Under the pieces are notes generated by a model. It ran no database searches and had not been told where the DNA came from. It saw only the letters and a list, made by a program, of their open reading frames with translations. Below are positions 25,871 to 29,931 of a stretch of DNA of 39,662 bases, in pieces (position 1 is the stretch's first letter; each line of letters begins with the position of its first letter). The position numbers and the translations under genes are program-made. This stretch comes from Myxococcales bacterium (lineage in GTDB: Bacteria > Myxococcota_A > Polyangia > Polyangiales > Polyangiaceae): positions 1 to 39,662 of the forward strand of contig JANXMC010000533.1 of NCBI GenBank assembly GCA_025354825.1, read 5' to 3'.

Positions 25871-27148
25871 TCAGCCGACGATCTCGGCGACCGCTTCGAC
25901 GAGGCGGTCGATGTCCCCCGTCGTGTTGAAGATGTGCGGGCTCGCGCGAACCGTCCCATCGAGCTTCGCGCGCGCGTGGAGCACGTGGGTGCAGTGGAAG
26001 CCGCCCGACACGCAGATGCCGAACATGTCGGAAAGGGCGCGGGCGACGTTCTCTTGGGTCATGGCCGGGGCGTCGACCACGAAGGTCGCGAGCGCAATGC
26101 GGCGCGACGCGGGAACGTCGCCCGCGAGGATGCGCACGCCCGAAATCGTGCCGAGGCCGCGGAGCAGGTAGTCGGTCATCTGTACGTCGTGCGCGCGAAT
26201 CGCCGTCATGCCGATCTTGCGCATGAAGCGCACCGCGGCGCCGAAGCCGATGGTCGCCTCGATGGCCGGCGTGCCGGCCTCGAAGCGGAATGGCGGGTCG
26301 CGCAGCACCAGCTCGCCGATCCCCAAGTCACCGTTCACGGCCACCATGCCGCCGCCGACTTGGTACAGCCCGAACTTCGCCATGCGCTCTCGCTTGGCGA
26401 AGAGCACTCCGACGCCGCTCGGCCCGAAGGCCTTGTGGGAGCTCGCCGCGTAGAAGTCGACGTCGAGCTTTTTCACATCGACGGGCAGGTGACTCAGCGA
26501 CTGCGCGCCGTCCAGAAGCACGGGAATGCCGCGGCGCCGCGCGATGGCGACGATCTCCTCGACCGGCGCGATGACGCCGGTGACGTTCGAGACGTGCCCC
26601 ACGGAGATGAGCTTCGTGCGCGGCGTGATGAGGCTCTCGATCATCTCCCAGCGGGGCACACCGTCGCCGTCGATGGGGATCGGCACGGGCGCCGCGCGAA
26701 CGCGCCACGGAAGCCAGTTCGCGTGGTGCTCGCTCGCGGGGAATACGACCTCGTCGTCCGCCGTGAGCGCGAGGGCGTGGGCGACCAGGTTGATGGCCTC
26801 GGTGGCGCCGCGCACGAACACGAGCTCGTCGGGGGCGGCGTTGAGCAGCCCCGCGACCTCCAGCCGTGCGGCGTCGTAAAGCTGCGTCGCCTCGTCGCCC
26901 AAGCCGTGGACACCGCGGTGCACATTGGCTGTGCACGACGCGTAGTAGTGCGACACGGCGTCGATGACGACGCGCGGCTTCGGTGTGGTCGACGCGCTGT
27001 CGAGGAAGACGAGCCCGTGCCCCGAAAGCTCGCGCGAGAGGAGAGGGAACTCGGGCCGCAGCGACTCGGCGAGATGGTTCAAGCTCGTCGTGCTGGCGCT
27101 TGCTGGGTTGCCGTTCGTCGGGCCCGTCGTCGTGGTCGTGGTCGTCAC
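25871..27148 (-). CDS. SufS/CsdA-like cysteine desulfurase with altered Cys loop
   Basis: The 425-aa PLP enzyme follows SufS closely: SEHHANWLPW (His for PLP stacking), LLDGAQS, SSHKAFGPSGVGVLF with PLP-binding Lys239, FEAGTPAIE, and a C-terminal VRASPHIFNTTGDIDRL with the carboxylate Arg. The persulfide Cys386 is present, but the loop reads VSGGFHCTHVLH where SufS has RTGHHCAQP. The loop Arg (R359 in E. coli SufS) is therefore Ser. A Thr-rich N-terminus precedes it. The GTG start lies in a 4-bp overlap with the PaaK-like gene; no SufE or SufBCD genes are nearby. Function could be sulfur delivery or a different beta-elimination. Confidence 0.9.
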   Translation of the reverse strand: MTTTTTTTGPTNGNPASASTTSLNHLAESLRPEFPLLSRELSGHGLVFLDSASTTPKPRVVIDAVSHYYASCTANVHRGVHGLGDEATQLYDAARLEVAGLLNAAPDELVFVRGATEAINLVAHALALTADDEVVFPASEHHANWLPWRVRAAPVPIPIDGDGVPRWEMIESLITPRTKLISVGHVSNVTGVIAPVEEIVAIARRRGIPVLLDGAQSLSHLPVDVKKLDVDFYAASSHKAFGPSGVGVLFAKRERMAKFGLYQVGGGMVAVNGDLGIGELVLRDPPFRFEAGTPAIEATIGFGAAVRFMRKIGMTAIRAHDVQMTDYLLRGLGTISGVRILAGDVPASRRIALATFVVDAPAMTQENVARALSDMFGICVSGGFHCTHVLHARAKLDGTVRASPHIFNTTGDIDRLVEAVAEIVG

Positions 27149-28518
27149 AGGCCTACCTCACCGATTTCGAATGTGGCCGCGTAGTCGAGAGGGAATGCGC
27201 GCCGCGCGATGCGCACCTTGCCGCTCGCCTCGGCGGCGAGAGCACTAACCGTTCGCACGTCCACGGCGAGGCCGGCGAGGAGCACGGTGAGGGCGGCGCG
27301 CACGTCGCGCACCACACGCTCAGCGTCGATGGAACCTCCGCTGTCGTCGCAAACGACGTCGACATCGACCTGCTCGGGCGTGCGCTGGTTTGCCTGAAAA
27401 AGCGCGACGCCGTCGACGTCGGCGAGCGCGCGGTCGAGCGCCCCCGCCGTGACGAGCGCCCCGTCGCCGCGGACGATGGCGTCGTCGACGCGCCCTTCGA
27501 GCGACACGAGCGCCGCCACATCGGACGGCCCACGTGGCGCGTCGCGCTCGACCTGCACGAGATCGCCCACGACGTAGCGCACGAGGGGCTGCGCCTCGCG
27601 ATCGAGCGTGGTCACGACGACGAGCGCCACGTTGGCGGCACCGGGGGTTGCGACCTTGACGGGGAGAAGCTCGACGTGCGTCGTGAACGGCGCGTCGAAA
27701 GGTGCATGATACAACCTTCCGTCCTCGCCTTGGACGAACAGCGTACCAACCTCGCGCGCGCTGTAGACCTGCAGCACGGGCACGGACGACACGGCCTTGA
27801 TCGCGCGCAACGCCGCGGCGGTCGTCGTCGCGTGGGTCAGCGCGATGAAGCCGCGCACGTCGAGCGTTTGCCCTTGGCGCGCCGCATACCGCGCGAGGAC
27901 GGCGAGATGCATGGGGTCGGCGATGAGGCCCACCGTCGCATGGCGCGATAGCTCGGCGATCATGCGCGCCATCTCCGCGGGCTTCCAGTAGGTCGGATCG
28001 GGGCGCTGGCTCAGCGCGAGGACCGACCCCGTAAGCCGCTCTTCATAGGCGAGGTCCCCCGCGTTGCAGCTGCGCGTTCCCGTGGCAGGCATCGCGAGCA
28101 CGGCGAGCCGCGGCGACGCGCCCACCTCGCTGCCGAGCGCCCGCGCCACGACGGCGTTGGTGCGAAGCGCCCGCGCCTCTTGCCGCGCCCACCACCCCGC
28201 ATCGTGCAGCACGCGCGCGCGCTCGCCCGTCGACCCGGCCGTCTCGACGATCTCGATCGCACCCGACGCGAGGTCGGCCTTGAGGTCGCGCCCCGCCGGC
28301 ACCCACTGCTTTGGCAGCGTCGCGCGGATGTCTTTCTTGTGGAGCAGCGGGAGCGACGCGAGGGCCTTCGCCAAGCTGCCTTCGGTGGCGAGCCGCGCCC
28401 CGCGCTTTACGTAAAAAGGAATCTCACGGAGCGCGCGTTCAATGGATACTCGAACGTTGGACCGAACTTCGCGCGCGTGCCCATCGTCGGCTGCGACCAC
28501 TTGGACCCCTGCGACCAT
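27145..28518 (-). CDS. PaaK-like adenylate-forming enzyme
   Basis: The 457-aa protein resembles phenylacetate-CoA ligase/CapK adenylate-forming enzymes. The P-loop-like ETAGSTGER (about 92) stands where TSGTTG-P is usual. YSAREVGTLF (about 255) matches the A5 region, GRVDDAIVRGDG the hinge, and SGKVRIARR near the C-terminus has the conserved A10 Lys. Such enzymes activate carboxylates with ATP and pass them to CoA or a carrier. The substrate is unknown. It overlaps the SufS-like gene by 4 bp, so the pair probably works in one pathway, perhaps making a thioester or thioacid (inference). The start at 28518 fits the upstream stop-free stretch. Confidence 0.82.
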   Translation of the reverse strand: MVAGVQVVAADDGHAREVRSNVRVSIERALREIPFYVKRGARLATEGSLAKALASLPLLHKKDIRATLPKQWVPAGRDLKADLASGAIEIVETAGSTGERARVLHDAGWWARQEARALRTNAVVARALGSEVGASPRLAVLAMPATGTRSCNAGDLAYEERLTGSVLALSQRPDPTYWKPAEMARMIAELSRHATVGLIADPMHLAVLARYAARQGQTLDVRGFIALTHATTTAAALRAIKAVSSVPVLQVYSAREVGTLFVQGEDGRLYHAPFDAPFTTHVELLPVKVATPGAANVALVVVTTLDREAQPLVRYVVGDLVQVERDAPRGPSDVAALVSLEGRVDDAIVRGDGALVTAGALDRALADVDGVALFQANQRTPEQVDVDVVCDDSGGSIDAERVVRDVRAALTVLLAGLAVDVRTVSALAAEASGKVRIARRAFPLDYAATFEIGEVGL

Positions 28519-28545: not shown

Positions 28546-29931
28546 TTAGTTCGATGTGCCAATCGTCCCGAGCGCGCGACCCAGCGCCGCGTCGTAAATA
28601 TGAATCACCCGTGACTCGGGGACATAAACTCGGCTCGCCGTAACCGTCATTGCGTCGACGGTGGTTTTGGGCATTCCGACGTCCCAAAGGCGATTGCCGG
28701 ACTTTGCGTCGAACGCTGCGACGTGCGCGTCGCCCTTGACGGTCTCGTAGCTCACCATCACGCGCCCACCTACGAGATCGCCCACCTTCGGCGGCCCTTC
28801 GGCGAGCCCGAGGGTGTCGGCCGCGACCGGGACGCTCCACCTCGGCTTCTTCGTTTTCGGGTCGAAGCCGGCGAGCATCGGTGTCCGCGTTCCCGGCGAC
28901 TTTGTCCCGAATGCTACGCCGTCGTCGCCTTCGACGAGGCCGTTCTGTGTGTCGAAGCCAGGTACCGTGGGGACAGCCCTCTTCGGAGTGCAACGCGCTT
29001 TCAAACTAGGATTTCGAAAGTGCATTTCGCAATCGAAGTTATCGGGGAAGGGGAGCTTGACCGGCATCCACGCGGGCTCCTTCGCGGGCTTCAGGGAAGC
29101 TGTCCTTCCGTCATACGAGACATCCTTCTTGTCGCTCATCTTCAGCCATGCGTCGCCGCTCGGGCCGGGCGCGGCGAAGATGTGCTCGACGCGATCGGAG
29201 AGCTTTTCGCTCTTCCGTTCCGTGCCGGTCGCGACGTCGTAGACCCTGAGGTTCGCCCGCGAGTCGGCAATGAAGACGTTGCGCCCCGCGACGGCGTAGT
29301 GCACCGAGGTTTCGGCGCCGACGTCTCCGATGGGGCCGACGCTCCAGAGCAGCTCGAACGTCGCGCCGTCGAAGGCCCCGACGAAGAGGCGCGACTTGCT
29401 GTTCACGTAGTCGTAGGTCGTGTAGCGCCCGATGAGATCCTCGACGCCATCGCCGTTCACCTGCGTCAGAACGGGAGGCTCGCTGTACCCCTCCATCATG
29501 ATCTTGTTGCTCGCCGCTTCGAGCGGGTTGCTCACGAGGGACTGCGCCGTCTTCCCGCTGGCGATGCGCGCACGGCTCGCGCTGGTGACGATCGACGTCA
29601 CGCTGCCAATGCCTGCGAAGAGCATGATCGGGATCACGTAGAGCGCGACCATCCACCCTTTGAAGCCGCTCGCGGGGGGCTGATACGCGATCCGCGGCAC
29701 GCTCCCGTTCGCGTAGGCGCCGCCCGGGCCGCGCGCGTTGGGCCCAGCGCCGAACGCCGTGACGATCACCTGCCCGGGCTGCAGCTGCGGCGGACCGAAG
29801 CCCGGCGCGCCCTGGCGGGGCGCATCGAAGCGAGTGCCGCAAAACTGGCAAACGACGAAGGGGGTGCCCGCCGGTACGACGAGATGCGCGCCGCAGTGAG
29901 CGCACTTGGGAGCAGTGAGCGAGGTCGCCAT
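28546..29931 (-). CDS. Zinc-ribbon membrane protein with PQQ-like propeller domain
   Basis: The 461-aa protein starts with a zinc ribbon (CAHCG at about 10, CQFCG at about 28). A Pro/Gly-rich stretch, one membrane helix (about 93-113, WMVALYVIPIMLFAGIGSV) and a long beta-rich domain follow. That domain contains blade signatures such as FVGAFDGATFELLWSVG, ADSRANLRVYDVATGT and FDAKSGNRLWDVG, as in PQQ/outer-membrane BamB-like propellers. The topology puts the ribbon in the cytoplasm and the propeller outside. Exact function is unknown. Divergent from the gene at 29999; the PaaK-like gene begins 27 nt past the stop. Confidence 0.85.
   Translation of the reverse strand: MATSLTAPKCAHCGAHLVVPAGTPFVVCQFCGTRFDAPRQGAPGFGPPQLQPGQVIVTAFGAGPNARGPGGAYANGSVPRIAYQPPASGFKGWMVALYVIPIMLFAGIGSVTSIVTSASRARIASGKTAQSLVSNPLEAASNKIMMEGYSEPPVLTQVNGDGVEDLIGRYTTYDYVNSKSRLFVGAFDGATFELLWSVGPIGDVGAETSVHYAVAGRNVFIADSRANLRVYDVATGTERKSEKLSDRVEHIFAAPGPSGDAWLKMSDKKDVSYDGRTASLKPAKEPAWMPVKLPFPDNFDCEMHFRNPSLKARCTPKRAVPTVPGFDTQNGLVEGDDGVAFGTKSPGTRTPMLAGFDPKTKKPRWSVPVAADTLGLAEGPPKVGDLVGGRVMVSYETVKGDAHVAAFDAKSGNRLWDVGMPKTTVDAMTVTASRVYVPESRVIHIYDAALGRALGTIGTSN

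Follow-up and report, generated by a model that had tools for sequence, protein, structure and literature searches.

A SufS-type cysteine desulfurase paired with a PaaK-like protein in Polyangiales: a candidate sulfur-transfer unit with a changed docking surface

Introduction

Characterised type II cysteine desulfurases pass their sulfur to SufE, SufU or CsdE. The locus considered here raises the question of where a SufS-type enzyme might send its sulfur when its persulfide loop is altered and its gene overlaps that of a PaaK-like protein. It lies in a window of 39,662 nucleotides, this being the whole stretch of DNA that was analysed (contig JANXMC010000533.1 of the Myxococcales bacterium assembly GCA_025354825.1). 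The original prediction, made from the sequence alone, was that the two proteins perform thio-chemistry on an activated carboxylate and do not take part in Fe-S assembly. We posit instead, with a probability of roughly two in five, that this type II desulfurase has been redirected towards a sulfur acceptor with the PaaK fold and that the two genes constitute a dedicated sulfur-transfer unit. Both proteins are divergent representatives of known fold families; what is new here is that they form a fixed pair, one with an altered docking surface and the other with an invariant cysteine. A literature search, limited in extent, returned neither a report of a SufS/PaaK pair nor a paper on an R359 variant of SufS.

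Results

Organization of the locus

Both reading frames predicted for the stretch 25871–28518 are present at those positions, with the PaaK-like gene preceding the desulfurase gene (Table 1). At the junction (...GGCCTGTGACG...), the TGA stop of the former and the GTG start of the latter have 4 bp in common, bearing out the overlap described in the original prediction and pointing to translational coupling. Scans for promoters and terminators gave no signal above chance.

Table 1. Coordinates in the window of the two genes, their junction and the motifs discussed in the text
Feature	Position	Strand	Remark
PaaK-like (ANL-fold) protein, 457 aa	27145..28518	(-)	gene 1 of pair; ORF
SufS-type (type II) cysteine desulfurase, 425 aa	25871..27148	(-)	gene 2 of pair; ORF, profiles
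4-bp GTGA overlap, stop/start	27145..27148	(-)	translational coupling
CVSGGFHCT, changed Cys loop, codons C379 to T387	25988..26014	(-)	computed from ORF start 27148
TQEN replacing the HxxD transpersulfurase-docking motif, codons T364 to N367	26048..26059	(-)	computed from ORF start 27148
TAGSTGER, degenerate ATP P-loop (A3 motif), codons T93 to R100	28219..28242	(-)	computed from ORF start 28518
C151 codon, sole invariant Cys of the PaaK-like family	28066..28068	(-)	computed from ORF start 28518

The desulfurase frame opens with a Thr-rich N-terminus (residues 1–18, beginning MTTTTTTTG) that is missing from the orthologues; hence, translation may in fact begin at a more internal codon. On the same strand, 27 bp upstream of the pair, a gene at 28546–29931 codes for a protein that begins with a zinc-ribbon-like segment (CxxC) and also has a BamB-like region of PQQ repeats. 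This gene may be co-transcribed with the pair and shows no conservation alongside it in the orthologous loci.

Conservation and evolution of the pair

A survey of 184 genomes of the order recovered a desulfurase orthologue in 16, and in all 16 a PaaK-like orthologue is adjacent, indicating that the pairing is more than chance. About half of the loci overlap by 4 bp, the −4 arrangement being seen in eight orthologous loci. Thus, the pair, on whose recurrence across genomes the original prediction depended, is conserved in related genomes. Two diverged pairs were also found. One (G020) is located near genes for a radical SAM protein, LuxC, a luciferase-like protein (oxygenase) and a fatty acid hydroxylase. 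The second (G268, locus L162), from a different family, displays the reversed order with the desulfurase first, and again a 4-bp overlap, in which an in-frame ATG of the PaaK-like gene overlaps the desulfurase stop codon. A wide scan of genome contigs with the PaaK-like protein returned one relative, and the distribution given here is that known from this phylum sample.

In the desulfurase tree, the orthologues group together with support of 100/100 and are joined with the two distant paired forms at 83/82, a join that long branches leave unsure. In the PaaK tree, the paired forms do not constitute a single clade, implying repeated gain or loss of the pairing on the PaaK side.

The desulfurase and its docking surface

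The window desulfurase is a class V PLP enzyme (PF00266, 359 bits), for which the best curated profiles are TIGR01979 (SufS; 377.6 bits, under the cut-off of 475.1) and NF041166 (family 2A encapsulin cargo; 378.7 bits, cut-off 800). Its sequence shares about 40% identity with structurally characterised SufS, and the top fold-search matches of its model (pLDDT 76) are SufS structures. We aligned the window protein and 12 orthologues with E. coli SufS (MG1655) and a further 47 distinct SufS-type sequences taken from related genomes. The equivalents of E. coli K226, H123, D200, Q203, R379, C364, H55 and R56 are all retained in the window protein and the 12 orthologues. Accordingly, the enzyme displays the features of a type II desulfurase, namely the class V PLP fold, the Schiff-base lysine, His123, Asp200, Gln203, Arg379 and Cys364 on a short loop. 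Since these catalytic residues are kept, it probably has cysteine desulfurase activity, with the persulfide forming on C386.

C386 is the equivalent of the E. coli persulfide cysteine, C364, while S381 and F384 occupy the positions of R359 and H362, respectively. Hence, two elements of the original prediction, the kept cysteine and the replacement of the loop arginine by serine, stand as described. The third stands in part: the cysteine is indeed followed by T-H-V, but the E. coli sequence given for comparison as AQP is in fact AMP, QP being the commonest form at these residues outside E. coli SufS. The R359 position is Ser in 13 of 13 orthologues (window included) and Arg in all 48 of the other SufS-type proteins compared, which take in SUF-operon enzymes, encapsulin cargo enzymes and the two distant paired forms; among related genomes, the altered loop is thus not shared by proven SufS enzymes, a finding that would have spoken against the original prediction. 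Across the clade the H362 position is F, H or Y, and the position of E. coli A357 has a second invariant cysteine (C379), 7 residues upstream of C386.

The change extends beyond the loop: the HxxD docking motif of helix alpha16 (H343, D346) is replaced by TQE[N/S] across the clade, so that the window enzyme departs from the SUF-type docking features at both the motif and the loop arginine. In SufS, H343 and D346 matter in SufE binding (PMC11408855), and in M. tuberculosis SufS, Arg368 and His371 touch SufU (PMC10216065); judged by their distance from the cysteine, the latter two would correspond to E. coli R359 and H362. As published contact residues for both SufE and SufU are changed, we interpret the loop change as belonging to a wider remodelling of the partner surface. 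The two diverged paired desulfurases retain the loop arginine and, therefore, the Arg-to-Ser change is not required for pairing.

Family 2A encapsulin cargo desulfurases, which occur in related genomes, resemble the window enzyme in being SufS-type proteins that are found outside the SUF operon and lack HxxD. However, they keep the loop arginine, score far higher against NF041166 and form a separate clade in the tree. We accordingly rejected an assignment of the window enzyme to this family, its score being far under the cut-off, its clade different and its N-terminus short (425 aa).

The PaaK-like partner and its invariant cysteine

The PaaK-like protein of the window has no match in Pfam and falls under the cut-offs of both NF045666 (DVU_1553 family; 49.5 bits against 300) and TIGR02155 (PaaK phenylacetate-CoA ligase; 22.1 bits against 646.3). 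Modelled with AF2 (mean pLDDT 86), it matches PaaK-family AMP-ligases from end to end (E 6.7e-20) and displays the two-domain ANL fold. The atypical P-loop attributed to this adenylate-forming enzyme in the original prediction is there, if only mildly atypical, and belongs to a series running from SGTTGER in the G020 form through TAGSTGER in the window to its absence in all members of genus g5, which have GLAEAR or GSADAR. In the window protein, the A5 Glu, A7 Asp and A10 Lys can be recognised along with the P-loop; the A5, A7 and A10 motifs are mostly retained across the family, with the A10 Lys changed to Arg in two members.

Within genus g5, pairwise dN/dS of the PaaK-like gene is about 0.14 to 0.56 (NG86). 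As these values are below 1 even without the P-loop, the gene is evidently under purifying selection, and we rejected the idea that it is a decaying pseudogene. The loss of the P-loop in one genus, with the pairing and the partner cysteine persisting, suggests that adenylation may not be the shared core function of the family.

The sole invariant cysteine, C151, is situated in a loop modelled with pLDDT below 50. Every paired form, the two distant ones included, has Cys at this alignment column, and not one of the 22 unpaired relatives does; no SufS-type gene was found in the DNA surrounding the latter. Most of the unpaired relatives have a gap at this column, i.e., they lack the loop, and the correlation hence depends chiefly on the two nearest unpaired proteins, which have a Cys four columns before that of C151, and on genus g20. 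The PaaK-like proteins of genus g20 (L150–L154, L163) are relatives of the G020 paired form with a P-loop altered to STGTNHAR, and are without C151 and without a SufS neighbour. C151 could alternatively have a structural or substrate-binding role.

Iron-sulfur assembly genes in the carrier genomes

In the 17 genomes with the pair (the 16 with orthologues plus G020), where control searches matched as expected, SufB/D and SufE searches found no match in any. The absence of Suf genes near the pair noted in the original prediction thus extends, for SufB/D and SufE, to the whole of the assembly from which the window derives. NifU_N has one match each in 15 of the 17, the full-length ones scoring near 180 bits, as for IscU. 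We therefore rejected a SufE or SufU hidden elsewhere in the genome, SufE being found in 0 of 17 and the single strong NifU_N matches resembling IscU. Given carriers without a SUF scaffold, SUF Fe-S assembly does not appear to be the role of the paired desulfurase; the earlier claim that the pair is not for Fe-S assembly is well supported in this sense by a pair that is both conserved and coupled. The window's own assembly (859 contigs) gave no NifU_N match, most likely reflecting an assembly gap, because nearly all relatives have the domain (37 of the 39 genomes in the relatives search).

Discussion

A candidate sulfur-transfer unit

Based on these residues and gene associations, we propose that the SufS-type enzyme would take sulfur from cysteine with the help of PLP and hold it as a persulfide on C386. 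With the docking surface for SufE or SufU swapped for other, fixed residues, it would operate outside SUF Fe-S assembly. The likeliest acceptor would be the co-encoded PaaK-like protein, with the sulfur passing to C151. More speculatively, where the adenylation motifs survive, as in the window, the sulfur might be delivered to an adenylated acid, yielding a thiocarboxylate or a compound related to it; the PaaK-like protein of genus g5, devoid of the P-loop, might serve as a plain sulfur acceptor or carrier. A bolder and rather unlikely version of this proposal is that the PaaK-fold acceptor takes the persulfide on its loop cysteine and ancestrally thiolated its own acyl-adenylate, the pair being a self-contained desulfurase and thioacid synthetase.

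If the acceptor model is true, a clade with a rewritten and fixed docking surface and a ligase-fold partner would represent a new branch of bacterial sulfur traffic. The PaaK-like protein would be a new kind of sulfur acceptor, widening the known range of bacterial sulfur hand-over, and would offer a testable example of how an adenylating enzyme drifts towards a role as sulfur carrier. The pair may also flag undescribed sulfur-containing metabolites of myxobacteria.

The strongest competing proposal, which is rather unlikely, follows the activated-carboxylate chemistry of the original prediction: an aryl or fatty acid would be adenylated by the PaaK-like enzyme and converted to a thiocarboxylic acid or a derived metabolite with persulfide or sulfide from the desulfurase, C151 not necessarily being the acceptor. 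The full-length PaaK fold, whose nearest solved relatives activate aromatic acids, the recognisable P-loop, A5, A7 and A10 residues, and the biosynthesis-like cluster around the G020 pair (LuxC, luciferase-like oxygenase, radical SAM) are all consistent with it. However, the genus without the P-loop keeps both genes under selection, and no tailoring genes are conserved beside the pair in the family. The data thus bear out the earlier activated-carboxylate idea only in part, and more of them agree with the PaaK-like protein as a sulfur acceptor; the two proposals converge if the protein does both.

It is improbable that the SufS-type enzyme has ceased to donate sulfur and now works as a different PLP enzyme (a lyase, decarboxylase or aminotransferase), its substrate being an amino acid or adduct thereof in the pathway of the ligase. 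Class V PLP enzymes are known to switch reaction, which provides a precedent, and the score under the SufS cut-off and the changed loop and docking residues would agree with such a switch; yet the persulfide cysteine, the carboxylate-binding arginine (E. coli R379), H123 and the R56 loop are retained, which is unexpected if desulfuration was lost. Least probable is a housekeeping desulfurase for general sulfur supply (Fe-S clusters, tRNA thiolation) with the PaaK-like gene merely a neighbour, for although the window enzyme is the only SufS-type desulfurase found in its own assembly and NifU_N was not found there, the latter is probably the assembly gap noted above, contig C616 has a NifS-type desulfurase, and adjacency and coupling recur in distant lineages.

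Comparison with known systems

The proposed sulfur-transfer unit shares with the SufS/SufE and SufS/SufU systems the fold, about 40% identity, the catalytic residues and a short persulfide loop on the desulfurase side; it differs in lacking SufE, SufU and SufBCD, in the replacement of HxxD and the loop arginine, and in its PaaK-fold partner. That partner shares the ANL fold over its full length with PaaK-family AMP-ligases such as PaaK1, NatL2, AjiA1 and ClxA. In contrast to these, to which it is less than 21% identical in the fold match, its family has a worn or lost P-loop and a family-specific C151 loop; moreover, PaaK-family AMP-ligases usually belong to a separate pathway that does not include a desulfurase. 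A further parallel, one of gene logic, is the PtmA3/PtmU4 cassette of thioplatensimycin, in which two genes likewise provide for carboxylate activation followed by sulfur addition. There, sulfur is supplied by sulfur-carrier proteins and PtmU4 performs the transfer (PMC6006322), whereas here a desulfurase is encoded together with the ligase-like protein.

Variation among the loci

We rejected a larger conserved cluster around the pair, the neighbouring genes, among them those for LGT, a class II DAHP synthase and an MFS transporter, being present in some loci only, in a manner resembling chromosomal synteny. A related MFS transporter is located upstream of the pair in six loci (L069, L071, L072, L075, L077 and L080), and four loci have the class II DAHP synthase close to the pair; the window contains neither gene.

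The desulfurase genes at L075:11096-12316 and L076:216-1436 are separated by a dS of about 0.10, compared with about 0.60 for their PaaK-like partners, a pattern that recombinational exchange of the desulfurase gene could produce. Near-identical desulfurases with PaaK-like partners that are not so argue against tight one-to-one co-evolution. In L083:16893-18320, which belongs to the same record as L039, the reading frame of the desulfurase changes close to residue 365, immediately ahead of the Cys loop, through either a frameshift or an assembly error. One genome (G139) codes for two copies of the pair (L076 and L084).
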